Shown here: in pieces, positions 32,104-60,523 of the stretch
How the letters are laid out: every line of letters begins with the position of its first letter
Numbering within the stretch: the stretch's first letter is position 1
Source: Microbacterium invictum
Lineage (GTDB): Bacteria > Actinomycetota > Actinomycetes > Actinomycetales > Microbacteriaceae
Reading direction: 5' to 3'
DNA: 64,000 nt
Assembly (NCBI RefSeq): GCF_034421375.1
Contig: NZ_CP139779.1
Location: forward strand, 2,542,001-2,606,000
The notes under the pieces: model-generated
Told to the model about the DNA's origin: nothing
What the model saw: only the letters and a program-made list of their open reading frames with translations
The model's database searches: none
Position numbers and translations under genes: made by a program

Positions 32104-32901
32104 TCAGCGCACGTGCACGACGTCTCCGGCAGATACCGCGGTCTCGCGGCCGGTGGCGTCTTCGACGACGAGCCGTCCGTCGGCGTCGAGCCGCGCCGCG
32201 CGGCCGGTGAGCCGGGTGCCGTCGGGCAGCTGCACGGCGACGTCGGCGCCGAGGGTCGAGCACAGGGCGCTCACCTCGCCCGAGACGCCGGATGCCGCGG
32301 CATCGCCTCGCGCGGTGACGAGTGCGGTGAGCTGCTCGTCCAGAGCCGTGAGGAAGTCGGCGACCAGCCGGTCGTCGTCGCAGGTGAGTCCGAGGGCGGC
32401 GAACGAGACGGCGGTGTCGACCGGGAGGTCTGCCCGGGTCATCCGCGTGTTCACTCCGGCGCCGACGACGACGGTGTCGGGATCGCCTCCGACGACCTCG
32501 GCGAGGATGCCGCAGACCTTGCCCCCGTCGACGAGGACGTCGTTCGGCCACTTGAGGGTGGCCGAGTGCGGCGTGCCGCGCAGTTGCGCGCCGACCGCGC
32601 GGGCCATCGCGGCACCGGCGACGAGCGGGATCCAGCCGCGGGACTCGAGGGGAAGCGCCGGCACGCGGACCACGACCGACAGGGCCAGCGCAGTGCCGGG
32701 CGGAGTGGTCCAGCTGCGGTCGAGGCGGCCGCGACCGGCGCGCTGGTCCGTGGTGAGGAGCACCGACAGGTGCGGCCAGCCGTCGGGGTCGGCCGCGGCG
32801 GCCGCGAGGACGTCGGCGTTAGTGGAGTCGGTGGACTCGGTGATCTGAACGCGGGGGCTCACGGCGGCGGCGCGGGGATACCCGTCGGTGGGGATCGGCA
32901 T
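32104..32901 (-). CDS. birA: Biotin--[acetyl-CoA-carboxylase] ligase
   Basis: Attaches biotin to the BCCP domain of the carboxylase alpha subunit (41555-43321). 265 aa; class I ligase without the N-terminal DNA-binding HTH, so not a repressor. Motifs: ESTDSTNADVL, the biotinyl-AMP loop TTDQRAGRGRLDRSW, LKWPNDVLVDGGKVCGIL and VVVGAGVNTR, followed by a C-terminal SH3-like domain. TAGGGT lies six bases before the ATG. Its placement next to carboxylase beta and epsilon genes fits the function. Confidence 0.96.
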   Translation of the reverse strand: MPIPTDGYPRAAAVSPRVQITESTDSTNADVLAAAAADPDGWPHLSVLLTTDQRAGRGRLDRSWTTPPGTALALSVVVRVPALPLESRGWIPLVAGAAMARAVGAQLRGTPHSATLKWPNDVLVDGGKVCGILAEVVGGDPDTVVVGAGVNTRMTRADLPVDTAVSFAALGLTCDDDRLVADFLTALDEQLTALVTARGDAAASGVSGEVSALCSTLGADVAVQLPDGTRLTGRAARLDADGRLVVEDATGRETAVSAGDVVHVR

Positions 32902-32907
32902 GCCTTC

Positions 32908-32913
32908 ACCCTA
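32908..32913 (-). promoter_or_regulatory. Candidate leaderless -10 for birA
   Basis: The minus strand reads TAGGGT, six bases, ATG. Confidence 0.5.
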
Positions 32914-32978
32914 TGCGGGGGCGGTCACTGCGCGCGGGGGCTTGCATAAGGCGCGGTCACTCCTCTTCTCCCCCTCCT

Positions 32979-33051
32979 CGCGCGTACGATCGGCCGGCAG
33001 GCGGACCTTGCGCGCGCGGTGTACGCGTCTCGGCCGGTCGTACGCGCGCGG
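32979..33051. repeat. Palindromic element A1 (family A), upstream of the first DUF559 gene
   Basis: The left arm (32979-32996) and right arm (33031-33048) pair over 18 bases with one mismatch; the 34-base interior includes GTACGCGT. The right arm GGTCGTACGCGCGCGG recurs with one or two changes in element A2 downstream of the gene, in the same orientation. It ends 112 bases before the ATG of the DUF559 gene. The remaining upstream sequence up to 33163 shows no gene. Confidence 0.75.
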
Positions 33052-33163
33052 AAGACGGCGCCGTCGCGGCATCCGTTCCTGCCCATGTGGCGCCGGCGCC
33101 GAGTCATCCCCAGATCGCCGTGAGGCACGGTCGACCGCCCTGCGACGTCGCGATGCTGACCGG

Positions 33164-34006
33164 ATGCGACGCATCATCCTCCCCTCTCAGGGGTACCTGC
33201 ACCGCGCCAGCCTCCTCGAGACCGGATGGCGCCCGGACGCCCTCCGCCGAGCGATGACCGAGCAGGGCCTTGAACTCCTGCGACGCACCTGGGTGGTGGC
33301 GCCCGACCTCGATTCGCGGCTGCGCCACGCGGCGACCCTCGGCGGCGTCGTGACCTGCGTGAGCGCCACGGACGCGTTCGGCCTGTGGCGCCCCGACGGC
33401 ACGACCCGCCCGCATGTGCGCCTCCCGCCCCATTCGAGCAGCGTGTCGGATGTCGCGCGGCTCCACCGTTCGCAGGCGGTCACTCTCGCTCCGGCGCGGC
33501 AACTCGTCGACGCGATCGAGAACGTCCTGGCCGCGGTCACGGCCTGCCTCCCGTTCGCCGACGCCCTCGTCGTGTGGGAGTCGGCCCTCCAGCGCGGCGT
33601 CGTCGCATCCGCGCATCTCCGCGCGGTCGCCTGGAAGACCACGGCCGCACGCCAGTTGGCCGACACCGCGGGGGCCCTCTCGGACTCGGGCCTCGAGACG
33701 CTGTTCGTGGACGGGATGCGGCGTGTGGGCGTGGGCGTCCTGCAGCAGGTGGTGATCGGGGGTCAACCCGTCGACGGTCTCATAGGAGATCGCCTGGTGG
33801 TCCAGATCGACGGGTTCGCGCATCACTCCGATGCGGCGCAGCGGCGGAAGGACATCCGCCACGACCGGCTCCTGCGCTCCCTCGGGTACACGGTCTTCCG
33901 CTTCGACTATGTCGACATCGTGCACAACTGGCCGCGAGTGCAGGCCGAGGTGCTGCGCGCACTCGCGCAGGGCCTTCACCTCGCGCCCCGCGGGGCGCTG
34001 GCGTGA
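33164..34006 (+). CDS. Winged-helix (AbiEi-like) plus DUF559/Vsr-like nuclease-fold protein, copy 1
   Basis: 280 aa. Residues about 5-45 resemble the AbiEi-type winged helix (GYLHRASLLETGW, RRTWVVAP). Residues about 176-250 match the DUF559/Vsr-like PD-(D/E)XK fold: SGLETL (Glu178), VDG (Asp204), VVQIDG (Gln214-x-Asp216), AHHSD (His220, His221), then RKDIRHDRLLRSLGY. Gln replaces the usual Glu of the ExD motif, which may weaken catalysis. It is the same length and domain order as the protein at 58451-59293. It is not next to an AbiEii toxin, so a type IV toxin-antitoxin role is unsupported. Palindromic elements A1 and A2 bracket it. Confidence 0.82.
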   Translation: MRRIILPSQGYLHRASLLETGWRPDALRRAMTEQGLELLRRTWVVAPDLDSRLRHAATLGGVVTCVSATDAFGLWRPDGTTRPHVRLPPHSSSVSDVARLHRSQAVTLAPARQLVDAIENVLAAVTACLPFADALVVWESALQRGVVASAHLRAVAWKTTAARQLADTAGALSDSGLETLFVDGMRRVGVGVLQQVVIGGQPVDGLIGDRLVVQIDGFAHHSDAAQRRKDIRHDRLLRSLGYTVFRFDYVDIVHNWPRVQAEVLRALAQGLHLAPRGALA

Positions 34007-49476: not shown

Positions 49477-49563
49477 CTGTCCCTGACTCCTGCAGAACTC
49501 CGCCGAAAGCCGGCCGAAACGCCGTTCCGGCGCGACGAGCGCCGATTGTGCAGGAGTTCGGGG
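49477..49563. repeat. Palindromic element B1 (family B)
   Basis: Left arm CCCTGACTCCTGCAGAAC (49481-49498), right arm ATTGTGCAGGAGTTCGGGG (49545-49563); arms pair over most of about 18 positions. Two further copies (B2, B3) flank the DUF559 gene at 58451. B1 lies between two convergent genes without a nuclease gene beside it. Interior contains GGCCGAAA, shared with B3. Confidence 0.8.
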
Positions 49564-57402: not shown

Positions 57403-58215
57403 GTGTCATCCGGGTCTTCCGACAGGGCTGCAGACGGGTCCCCCGCGTCGTCCGATGCGGCACCCCACCCGCGGCGCCGGTGGCGGCGCGTGCTGGCCTG
57501 GGTGCTCGGCTCGATCGGCGTGCTGTTCCTCCTCGCCGTCGGGGGCCTCGTCGTGTGGAGCCAGGTCGGGGTGATGCAGGCGGAAGCGGGCCCGCTCGCC
57601 GACGTGCAGAACGATCCCGGCATCCGGTTCACCGACACCTCGACGGCCGTCATCCTCGAGCCGTCCGGCGGAGCGGGAGAGGTGGGCCTCGTCTACATCC
57701 CCGGGGCGAAGGTCGAGGCTGCGGCGTACGCGGCGACGATGACGGACGTCGTGGCCGAGGACGGCGTGACGGTCGTCATCACCAAGCCCTGGCTGAACCT
57801 GGCGTTCTTCGATCTGCGGCCGCTGTCGAGCTTCACCGACCTCGTGCCCGGTGTCCAGGAGTGGATCGTCGGCGGGCACTCGCTCGGCGGGGTACGGGCC
57901 TGTCAGCTCGCCGGCGACGCCGACGCTCTGGCGCTGTTCGCGTCGTACTGCGCAGGCGACATCTCGGACTCGGATCTCCCCGTCATCAGCATCGCCGGCA
58001 GCGAGGACGGGCTCTCCACCCCCGAGAAGATCGCCGAGGCGCGGCCGCTGCTGCCCGACGACGCGGTGATGACCGAGATCGAAGGGGCCAACCACGCCGC
58101 CTTCGGCGCGTACGGCCCGCAGGCGGGCGACAACGAGGGCTCGATCACCCTGCCCGAGATGCGCGCGGAGCTCGCGGGCCTCCTCGCCCCCTTGGTCGCG
58201 GCCCTCCCCCGCTGA
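57403..58215 (+). CDS. Membrane-anchored alpha/beta hydrolase
   Basis: 270 aa. A short basic N-terminus, one TM helix (about residues 30-52), then an extracytoplasmic alpha/beta hydrolase domain of the actinobacterial YdeN/DUF-type: GLVYIPGAKVEAAAYA, WIVGGHSLGGVRACQLA (nucleophile Ser in GHSLGG), ISIAGSEDGLSTPEKI (Asp) and IEGANHAAFGAYG (His). The triad is intact. Substrate unknown. Confidence 0.88.
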   Translation: MSSGSSDRAADGSPASSDAAPHPRRRWRRVLAWVLGSIGVLFLLAVGGLVVWSQVGVMQAEAGPLADVQNDPGIRFTDTSTAVILEPSGGAGEVGLVYIPGAKVEAAAYAATMTDVVAEDGVTVVITKPWLNLAFFDLRPLSSFTDLVPGVQEWIVGGHSLGGVRACQLAGDADALALFASYCAGDISDSDLPVISIAGSEDGLSTPEKIAEARPLLPDDAVMTEIEGANHAAFGAYGPQAGDNEGSITLPEMRAELAGLLAPLVAALPR

Positions 58216-58236
58216 CCGCCGCGCGCCCGGCCTGAT

Positions 58237-58260
58237 CCCGGCCCGCCCCGGCCGGGTTGT
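58237..58260 (+). terminator. Terminator-like hairpin after the membrane-anchored hydrolase
   Basis: CCCGGCC, six-base loop, GGCCGGG, then TTGT, 21 bases after the hydrolase stop and immediately before element B2. A perfect 7-bp GC stem with only a short T tail. Confidence 0.55.
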
Positions 58261-58343
58261 CCCGAACTCCTGCAGAACATCACCGGCCGACCCCACATCA
58301 CCCTCCTTCGACGCGCGAGGCCGATTCTGCAGGAGTTCGGGAA
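58261..58343. repeat. Palindromic element B2 (family B), upstream of the second DUF559 gene
   Basis: The left arm CCCGAACTCCTGCAGAA and right arm TTCTGCAGGAGTTCGGG are perfect reverse complements over 17 bases, about 47 bases apart. The right arm is preceded by GCCGATT as in B1. It ends 107 bases before the DUF559 start codon. Confidence 0.85.
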
Positions 58344-58450
58344 AGGCGGGGTCGCACCCATCACTCCTGCACACCAGGGAAACCACGCACCCTGTCCACG
58401 GATCGCCCGCGCGACGACCCGCGACGGGTCCGCGCCCGTGGAATGGACGT

Positions 58451-59293
58451 GTGGTCGACCCTCCCCTCACCCCGTCGCAGGCCCTCTCCGCCACCTTCCT
58501 CAGCACGCAGGGACTTGCCCGGCGCGGGCTCGACAAGCGGATGATCCGGCGGTTGGTGTCGGAGGGACGCCTCATCCGGCTCCGCAGGGGCCGGTACGCC
58601 GATCCGCGCGCCCACCCGCACCTCCTCGATGCCGGCCGCGCGGGAGGCCGCCTCGATTGCGTCTCGCTGCTCGCCACCCTCGGCGTGTTCGTGAGGGAGA
58701 ACCCGGGACTGCACATCCAGTTCGACCGCAGTGCCAGCCGCATCCCTCCGCTTCGACCCGGGTACACCGCCCACTGGCGGAGCGACCGAGCGATCTCCGA
58801 GAACCTCGCCGCCGACCTCATCGGTGCGCTGGCTCAGGCCGTGAGATGCCAGACCCCGAGGGACGCGATCGCGACCCTCGACAGCGCGTGGCACCTCGGT
58901 CTCGTCGATGAAGCGGAGATCGCCGAGGTCTTCCGCCGCCTCCCGCATCGTCATCAGACCCTCCGACGGCTCCTCGATCGCCGCATGGAGTCCGGGCCGG
59001 AGACGCTCGTCCGCCTGATACTTCGCGGGCTCGGCTGTGGCGTCGACGTCCAGGTTCAGATCCCCGGCGTCGGGCGGGTGGACTTCGTCGTCGACGGGTG
59101 GCTCATCATCGAGTGCGACAGCAGGGCGCACCACGAGGGCTGGGACGCGCAGCGCCGCGACCGCCGCCGCGACCTCGCCGCCGCCGCGCTCGGCTACACC
59201 ACGATCCGTCCGCTGGCCGAAGACCTCCTCTTCGCCTACGACGCGACGGCGACCGCCATCCGAGCCGTCATTCTCACGCGCCGGGCGCGGTGA
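58451..59293 (+). CDS. Winged-helix (AbiEi-like) plus DUF559/Vsr-like nuclease-fold protein, copy 2
   Basis: 280 aa, the same length and domain order as the protein at 33164-34006. Residues about 10-52 form the winged helix (FLSTQGLARRGLDKRMIRRL, RLRRGRYADP). Residues about 181-262 form the nuclease-like domain: SGPETL (Glu184), RVDFVV (Asp211), IIECDSRAHH (Glu221-x-Asp223, His227, His228) and QRRDRRRDLAAAALGY. All expected acidic residues of a PD-(D/E)XK-type Vsr/DUF559 site are present. No AbiEii toxin lies beside it. Palindromes B2 and B3 bracket it, B3 starting two bases after the stop. Confidence 0.85.
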   Translation: MVDPPLTPSQALSATFLSTQGLARRGLDKRMIRRLVSEGRLIRLRRGRYADPRAHPHLLDAGRAGGRLDCVSLLATLGVFVRENPGLHIQFDRSASRIPPLRPGYTAHWRSDRAISENLAADLIGALAQAVRCQTPRDAIATLDSAWHLGLVDEAEIAEVFRRLPHRHQTLRRLLDRRMESGPETLVRLILRGLGCGVDVQVQIPGVGRVDFVVDGWLIIECDSRAHHEGWDAQRRDRRRDLAAAALGYTTIRPLAEDLLFAYDATATAIRAVILTRRAR

Positions 59294-59295
59294 CC

Positions 59296-59382
59296 CTGTC
59301 CCTCACTCCTGCAGATGGCGTCCCGACAGGCCGAAATCCGGGGTTTCGGGCCACGCCCGTGGATTTTGCAGGAGTTGGGGAC
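59296..59382. repeat. Palindromic element B3 (family B), directly after the second DUF559 gene
   Basis: Left arm GTCCCTCACTCCTGCAGA (59298-59315), right arm TTTGCAGGAGTTGGGGAC (59365-59382), 15 of 18 positions complementary; interior CAGGCCGAAA is shared with B1. Same orientation as B1 and B2. It fills most of the gap to the convergent adenosine deaminase gene. Confidence 0.85.
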
Positions 59383-59407
59383 GCGGCACGCGGCCGGCGG
59401 CCAGACG

Positions 59408-60523
59408 TCAGCGGTCGAAGCCGTCGGAGATGAGGTCGATCAGCTCCTCGCGCTGCTCCACCGGGAGGAAGGCGCCCGCCGCGGCGTTCATCTGGAACGC
59501 CTCGAGGTCGTCGAGCCCGTAGTCGAAGGCCTCGACGAGCAGCGCGAGCTCGCGGGTCAGCGACGTGCGGCTCATGAGCCGGTTGTCGACGTTCACCGTC
59601 ACCGCGAAGCCCAGCTGGTAGAGCAGGTCGAAGGGGTGATCCTCGAGGTCGGTGCCCCACCGCTGGATCGCACCCGTCTGCAGGTTCGACGACGGCGAGA
59701 GCTCCAGCGGGATCTCGCGGTCGCGCACCCAGCGGGCGAGGTCGCCGAACTCGACCAGCACCTCCTCGCCCGACCGCTGCACGATCTCGAGGTCCTCGGC
59801 GATGCGCACGCCGTGGCCGAGCCGAAGGGCGCGTCCGTCGAGAAGCGCCGACCGGATCGACTCCAGCCCCGCCGCCTCCCCCGCGTGCACCGTGACGGGG
59901 AAGAACTCCCCGGCGAGGTAGTCGAACGCCTTGCGGTGCCGTGAAGGGAGAAACCCGTCCTCGGGGCCGGCGATGTCGAACCCGACGGCGCCACGCCCGC
60001 GCCACTCCACGGCGAGCCGAGCGATCTCGTGCGACCGGTCGGTGTGCCGCATGGCGGTGATGAGCTGACCGACGCGGATGTCCCGCCCGGCGTCGGCGGC
60101 GAGATCCTCGCCCTCCTCGATGCCGTCCTGCACCGCCTCCACGACCTCGTCGAGGGTGAGGCCGCCGCCGAGGTGCTGCTCGGGCGCCCACCGCACCTCG
60201 CCGTAGATCACGCCGTCGGCGGCGAGGTCCTCGACGAACTCACGGGCGACGCGGGTCAGGCCCTCGCGGGTCTGCATCACCGAGAGGGTGACGTCGAAGG
60301 TCTTGAGGTACTCCACGAGCGACCCCGAGTCGCTCTTCTCGGCGAACCACTCCCCGAGCGCCTCGGCGTCGTCCTCGGGCAGATCGAGGTCGGCGTCGTC
60401 GGCGAGTTCGACGATGGTGGCGGGGCGGAGCCCGCCGTCGAGGTGATCGTGCAGCGAGATCTTGGGCAGGCTCCGCAGAGACACACCCTCCAGCTGGGCG
60501 TCACCGTGCTGATCGATGGCCAT
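59408..60523 (-). CDS. add: Adenosine deaminase
   Basis: 371 aa. Zinc hydrolase converting (deoxy)adenosine to (deoxy)inosine. LPKISLHDHLDGGLRP holds His25 and His27 of the metal site; VTVHAGEAAG the third His and catalytic Glu; LRLGHGVRI the next His; VNVDNRLMSRTSLTREL holds the metal Asp, with Asn in place of the second Asp as common in actinobacterial ADA. CGGAGGA lies before the ATG. Last gene of the nucleoside operon. Confidence 0.95.
   Translation of the reverse strand: MAIDQHGDAQLEGVSLRSLPKISLHDHLDGGLRPATIVELADDADLDLPEDDAEALGEWFAEKSDSGSLVEYLKTFDVTLSVMQTREGLTRVAREFVEDLAADGVIYGEVRWAPEQHLGGGLTLDEVVEAVQDGIEEGEDLAADAGRDIRVGQLITAMRHTDRSHEIARLAVEWRGRGAVGFDIAGPEDGFLPSRHRKAFDYLAGEFFPVTVHAGEAAGLESIRSALLDGRALRLGHGVRIAEDLEIVQRSGEEVLVEFGDLARWVRDREIPLELSPSSNLQTGAIQRWGTDLEDHPFDLLYQLGFAVTVNVDNRLMSRTSLTRELALLVEAFDYGLDDLEAFQMNAAAGAFLPVEQREELIDLISDGFDR

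Follow-up and report, generated by a model that had tools for sequence, protein, structure and literature searches.

Proteins of the RAYT class are Y1 HUH transposases. Passages of the published account of REPINs describe doublets of inverted repeats set 71 bp apart that flank a gene and also occur as dispersed copies (PMC3116915). For AbiEi, an excerpted account includes binding to a pair of 23-bp inverted repeats separated by 3 bp and bending of the DNA, with repeats 13 bp apart within each pair for its relative Rv2827c (PMC7319586), while the EDxHD enzyme I-Bth0305I is described in part of another as a dimer on a target of nearly 60 bp (PMC3943268). Here we analyse an AbiEi-like and EDxHD/Vsr-like nuclease gene, bracketed by two elements with inverted arms, in a 64,000-nucleotide stretch of Microbacterium invictum (contig NZ_CP139779.1, forward strand, 2,542,001 to 2,606,000; hereafter the window). 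Judged by sequence comparison, the gene diversifies as a single unit with the two elements at its sides. In Microbacterium the signal letters differ by protein line and in one clade the gene was swapped together with its signal type, which gives the unit the look of a selfish or self-targeting system not yet described. The original prediction, made from the letters of the window, knew of no published description, and none was found in open-licence PubMed Central literature, so one may exist unseen.

The gene occupies 58451..59293 on the forward strand, opens with GTG and encodes 280 aa. As first proposed, it is enclosed by two paired inverted-arm elements, to neither of which a strand was assigned. 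Upstream lies B2 (58260..58342), whose 18-bp arms (TCCCGAACTCCTGCAGAA; 58260-58277 and 58325-58342) are 100% complementary with 47 nt between them and give an outer AACTCC..GGAGTT length of 73. B3 (59298..59382) begins 4 bases past the stop codon, not two as originally counted, and its arms are imperfect (59298-59313 and 59367-59382; 16 bp, 88% complementary, 53 nt between). The right arm of B3 reads TTTTGCAGGAGT and therefore lacks CTGCAG. The shared orientation attributed to the two elements carries little meaning because each is nearly symmetrical. Between B2 and the gene start stands a lone half-site, ACTCCTGCA (58358..58372, forward strand); four of five related species have a similar one, CTCCTGCACA, in the corresponding position (genome G215 differs), among them the two relatives with arms of a different type. 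The window holds 8 copies of ACTCCTGCA where 0.27 would be expected, and none of 100 shuffles reached 8.

At E<=1, the only family matches of the protein were AbiEi and DUF559/MTES_1575. The folds positively assigned were AbiEi-like at the N terminus, with a modest Z, and Vsr/EDxHD (residues 178-280; 58982..59290, forward strand), in line with the winged-helix nuclease originally envisaged: an AbiEi-like winged-helix part joined to a Vsr-type nuclease. Residues E184, D211, D223, H228 and D237 of the nuclease domain, whose catalytic motif positions are those we take to be typical of EDxHD/Vsr enzymes, were invariant across 50 aligned proteins, and the protein is under purifying selection. NCBIfam held nothing matching this gene or its paralogue at locus L017. 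Gene calls inside our scripts were crude (GC frame), which leaves start positions uncertain.

Homologous genes of other species have flanking elements with the same core, AACTCC, and a different tail. We compared 80 named loci, the best of 102 from a scan with one genome per species; the genus of the compared genomes was inferred from these loci, which carry Microbacterium or Microbacteriaceae labels except for L122 ('Actinomycetes bacterium'). Perfect AACTCC..GGAGTT pairs (50-110 bp) numbered 108 within 500 bp of the gene and 3 elsewhere in the same 80 loci, with 0 pairs for the reversed motif; the even spread that would have spoken for coincidence was thus not the case. The near-gene pairs measured 62-64 bp (20), 73-75 bp (86), 86 bp (1) and 96 bp (1), and stood upstream in 37/80 loci, downstream in 44/80 and on both sides in 35/80. 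In a test free of the core, the same arm with the same spacing was present on both sides in 69/80 loci at 6 bp, 52/80 at 7 bp and 42/80 at 8 bp. At shifted positions, two-sided matches of 6 bp turned up in 1-9 of 74-75 loci and those of 7 bp in 0-1 of 74-75, and flanks permuted between loci gave means of 19.8/80 (6 bp) and 7.6/80 (7 bp). Gene and flanking elements therefore belong together, as had been supposed. Genes kept without elements had been named as a second sign of coincidence; most loci are two-sided, but 11/80 had no matched pair even at 6 bp, and this minority may keep the gene without elements, be one-sided or be too diverged for the test. Several loci lacking a perfect AACTCC pair have another repeated arm, for example CTCCGGA, CTCAGGA or AACGTCGG, although single 6-bp cases can be chance.

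The association was also seen across whole genomes. A search for AACTCC-N(50-64)-GGAGTT found on average 16.8 pairs per genome where a homologue matched at E<=1e-75 (n=114), 5.5 where the match lay between 1e-75 and 1e-45 (n=115) and 3.1 where no homologue reached the threshold of 1e-45 (n=137); the first and last groups differed with p 8e-27 (Mann-Whitney, uncorrected for kinship). At least five core pairs were present in 98/114 genomes of the first group and 35/115 of the second, with a maximum of 69 in one genome; the backward control usually gave 0-1, and 11 in one genome. The ACTCCTGCA arm type is present in 45/366 genomes of the genus. All 23 genomes with at least five ACTCCTGCA elements have the gene (E<=1e-45), as do 41/45 with any. 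Several genomes have two such genes lying about 18 kb apart in opposite orientation, for example G353 (contig C33, 30581 and 48839) and G203 (C1, 2593737 and 2612044); loci L132/L142 belong here as well.

The bases 3' of AACTCC vary by protein lineage and are usually the same on both flanks. Tails are readable only where arms retain ACTCC: 135 loci with the gene, among which named and unnamed ones overlap, yielded 101 readable cases and 67 after thinning. The main tail was shared by 88-89% of pairs at 70% protein identity or more (43 pairs), 30% at 65-70% (80 pairs) and 10-11% below 65% (2087 pairs). No single domain stood out when protein identity was correlated with tail similarity domain by domain (Spearman 0.02-0.18). 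Scanning alignment columns (59 proteins, six tail classes) gave the strongest signal at residues 93-96, predicted by a structure model to form a loop between two strands. Arginine at residue 93 (codon 58727..58729, forward strand) best tracked the third specificity base of the arm: arginine and a C at the third tail base occurred together in 25 cases and were both absent in 37, with 5 exceptions (62/67 concordant), and on a tree computed with residues 89-98 removed the two characters changed 13 and 11 times. We infer that arginine 93 faces the G of the opposite strand. Gene and flanking elements co-diversify, in support of the original proposal.

Exchange of the two as a block was visible at individual loci. 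At the adenosine deaminase locus, compared in the 30 best-scoring of 360 genomes with a match rather than in a random draw, the gene was present in 24/30; at least one adjoining element accompanied it in 23/24 and both elements in 19/24. The 6/30 loci without the gene had no element within 1.5 kb. Tails at this locus vary by species, usually in concert on both sides. One deaminase locus, L208 (G014), has the nuclease gene reversed between its elements. Synonymous divergence (dS) from the window's genome was 1.20 for the gene in G083 and 1.16 in G224, against 0.33-0.57 for neighbour genes. In species with the window's arm type, the gene and its neighbours gave 0.50 and 0.35-0.45 (G003), 0.47 and 0.17-0.34 (G206, where the gene is somewhat faster) and 0.34 and 0.29-0.43 (G215). 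The gene of G083 has TCA/TCC-type arms on both flanks. In two related species, G083 and G224, the gene was replaced together with its arm type, and the neighbours were not. A TCA-type element beside one L257 site is present in G083 and G224 and absent from the other four species.

Other genes can also lie between elements. At site L056, a 2.7-kb segment stands between two elements in the window's genome, and G224 is similar; in G206 and G215 a single gene of 1774/1798 aa, with lamin-tail domains in G206, lies between two direct element copies (64/71 and 67/72 positions identical), and G003 and G083 have a single element and no gene. This pattern, at few sites, fits recombination at elements, and is no proof of the nuclease as driver.

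The window's genome holds 14 elements of the form ACTCCTGCA-N(35-65)-TGCAGGAGT, with 0 in the backward control; 13 of them measure 71-73 bp over ACTCCTGCA..TGCAGGAGT and one 62 bp. Among the matches listed across the genus (53-83 bp allowed), lengths were 61-62, 71-74 and 83 bp. By the crude gene caller, 9/14 elements of this genome sit no more than 51 bp after a stop codon. Within the window, B1 (49485..49558, no strand assigned) is a dispersed copy that has no nuclease gene and lies at a distance of 22 bp from a stop codon. Linkers are unlike each other between non-orthologous copies in one genome, and the conserved interior of miniature inverted-repeat transposable elements (MITEs) or insertion sequences is not seen. 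A second dispersed palindromic family, TGACGGGGGA / TCCCCCGTCA, adjoins an element at L054 (5480-5600) and at several places in G206, G224 and G083.

The original prediction had the nuclease recognise a hairpin, and this was not supported. Linkers of 62 TGCA-type elements, the type covered by the test, showed no folding in excess of dinucleotide shuffles (mean z -0.16). Element lengths step by helical turns, being mostly 62-64 or 73-75 bp and sometimes 84-85. Outer lengths at the orthologous L053 site are 74 bp (G224), 85 (G003, G083 and G206), 84 (G215) and 64 (the window's genome); in the four genomes at 84-85 an arm is placed 11 bp farther outward and the one at 73-74 has degenerated. Linker A/T content peaks every 10 bp among 116 sequences of the 74-bp class and among 37 of the 63-bp class; these sets include orthologous copies and are not independent, and 0/300 shuffles matched either. 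Linkers do not out-fold shuffles, arms are spaced by helical turns and A/T content has a 10-bp rhythm; a bent duplex held by a pair of protein molecules is therefore the probable target, rather than a hairpin of REP type. The arm is conserved over about 22 bp, weakly at its ends (101 arms; ten positions fixed by the search). The AbiEi and I-Bth0305I precedents, one for each half of the protein, fit this twin-arm anatomy.

Six DUF559 genes were found in the window's genome at E<=0.001. The L017 paralogue (G000, 3107203-3107931) is 33% identical to the window's gene and has a Pfam DUF559 match above the cut-off and no AbiEi match at 0.001. It has a 67-bp GGGAGGAGAT..ATCTCCTCCC element on each side (G000:C1:3106941-3108272), the only two exact copies in the genome. 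This element is present in 35/361 genus genomes, in up to 9 copies (backward control 0), at 66-69 bp among the places listed. The flanking-element rule thus seems to extend beyond the subfamily of the window's gene. Paralogues L016, L018, L019 and L020 had no matched 8-bp pair on both sides. Many listed GGGAGGAGAT copies contain nested inner repeats, and L019, 27% identical, lies within the window itself (32888-34006) and has no matched flanking pair.

We favour, with modest conviction, a homing-like, self-targeting selfish nuclease unit. That the protein binds the arms is a prediction in which we place strong trust. Two molecules would bind the two inverted arms through their AbiEi-like parts on one face of the duplex, and the bound pair would bend the A/T-phased linker while residue 93 helps to read the base after the constant AACTCC; both steps are proposed with high confidence. 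With moderate confidence, paired nuclease domains, as in the I-Bth0305I dimer, would then cut or nick at the element, and cutting there is on balance likely. Repair against DNA with the same element could duplicate or exchange the whole element-gene-element unit, and now and then other genes enclosed by two elements; the site would be doubled on either side of the gene instead of being destroyed by it. That such cutting drives spread or swaps is conceivable, though here we are undecided and lean slightly to the cautious side. More tentative still is the proposal that AbiEi-EDxHD nucleases form a new selfish class, with twin sites set by helical turns, a composite site on each flank, spread or swapping of the unit and of other element-bounded genes by way of breaks at those sites, and orthogonal specificities that evolve through a short, partly readable code linking residue 93 to arm base 9.

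Several observations weigh against this proposal. The R93 column was picked after a scan of all columns, and on strongly supported branches about four independent pairs agree with the rule and none disagrees, which is too few to be significant (sign test p 0.125). In G224 the new arm type is on one flank only, with GCA/TCA arms upstream and a TGCA element downstream, and G083 has kept TGCA elements at orthologous dispersed places despite its TCA/TCC gene flanks. The dispersed elements of G013 are, among the matches listed, mostly ACG-type, its deaminase-locus gene is TGA-flanked and a second homologue is present. Dispersed elements appear mostly old: for each of the 10 that could be compared, of 12 here, one or more of five relatives carry an element at the matching position, and the compared stretches of these relatives were mostly chosen for holding elements. 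Presence or absence of an element was seen at few, ambiguous sites and without clean target duplications; one L257 site has the element in G003, G224 and G083, a short tandem repeat in G206 and G215 and unrelated sequence in the window's genome, and the L054 element is absent from G003, whose flank also differs. The cassette first suggested, transposing or copy-spreading, is partly supported, in that gene and arm type are exchanged together and copies are dispersed, and its transposition as such is putative. At least five core pairs also occur in 24/137 genomes without a homologue at E<=1e-45, among them G171 (38), G042 (23), G177 (17) and G032 (16), and G171 was counted against the gene-element link; such pairs may be relics or belong to a more distant partner protein, since homologues beyond this cut-off may serve genomes scored as gene-less. 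Finally, to live with at least 14 intact sites a cell must regulate the enzyme, protect the sites or have them nicked, and no sign of any of these was seen.

Chief among the rivals stands an autoregulator with dispersed operators: an AbiEi-type repressor whose elements are operators, with dispersed copies that regulate or insulate and a nuclease that acts elsewhere or hardly at all. AbiEi binding and bending at two 23-bp inverted repeats, as the excerpts of PMC7319586 have it, resembles the arm consensus of about 22 bp; one element and the lone half-site lie upstream of the gene, and compared dispersed elements remain at orthologous places. The presence of an element also downstream of the stop (44/80 loci, against 37/80 upstream), and the 9/14 copies close behind stop codons, sit poorly with this, although the latter may have promoter roles; so do invariant nuclease-type residues and the replacement of the gene together with its arm type. 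We consider it unlikely, though it deserves a hearing. A solitary restriction-like defence nuclease, with elements that label the cell's own DNA or are cleaved only in DNA entering from outside, is improbable. It would account for the Vsr-type nuclease, the AbiEi-like matches in a defence library and source names such as AbiEi antitoxin and very-short-patch-repair endonuclease. The flanking genes, an alpha/beta hydrolase and an adenosine deaminase, then genes of mannitol dehydrogenase and pyrimidine phosphorylase type, include no methylase, toxin or AbiEii (DUF1814), and the scan for a mismatch-repair or methylase partner covered these four nearest neighbours. No relative was encoded by the 29 viral-contig stretches that fit a pattern or found in phage records, plasmids gave 4 distant matches (32-37% identity), and long rare sites would make poor restriction targets. 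Slightly less probable again are REPIN/RAYT-like mobile hairpins, in which the product of the flanked gene mobilises the elements as single-stranded hairpins: the anatomy is similar, with doublets 71 bp apart, a flanked gene and dispersed copies in the passages cited (PMC3116915), but the protein has AbiEi-like and Vsr/EDxHD folds, the linkers do not fold beyond shuffles and neighbouring length classes differ by about one helical turn. A chance position of ordinary intergenic repeats or terminators next to the gene, to which several elements closely following stop codons might point, can be put aside almost entirely, being contradicted by the near/far, reversed-motif and shifted or permuted-flank controls, by arms that change with the protein and by the lack of any Rfam match at gathering score within 57800-60200.

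Looking ahead, a homing-like unit of this kind, if true, would add to RAYT/REP and homing endonucleases one more means by which a small gene keeps and spreads DNA sites of its own, here by combining a reader of antitoxin type with a nuclease of repair type. Genes that now carry the labels 'AbiEi antitoxin', 'very-short-patch-repair endonuclease' or 'DUF559' would also gain a function. The genus offers dozens of natural protein/site pairs whose specificities match and change fast, so that the recognition code and the helical ruler can be tested directly.

Set beside known systems, the unit was identical to none of those considered, and RAYT/REP, a classical homing endonuclease and an AbiE toxin-antitoxin were each rejected as its identity. 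The analogy to REP/RAYT first drawn holds for a flanked gene, paired inverted repeats at a fixed distance, dispersed copies and a gene-specific repeat sequence; it fails for the protein, which is not a Y1 HUH transposase, for lengths that step by helical turns and for the hairpin capacity of the spacer (n=62). At the few filled and empty sites compared, no clean target-site duplication of the kind left by MITEs or insertion sequences was seen. Unlike Vsr very short patch repair endonucleases, the protein has its own binding part and twin-site elements. With the AbiE type IV toxin-antitoxin system it shares the AbiEi-like fold, known for inverted-repeat binding and DNA bending, but here a nuclease is fused to it, no AbiEii toxin lies among the scanned neighbours, and elements stand on both sides and dispersed. 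With EDxHD homing endonucleases such as I-Bth0305I it shares the EDxHD/Vsr catalytic domain; the DNA-binding part is AbiEi-like, no intron or intein was seen, and the gene, instead of interrupting its site, lies between two whole elements.
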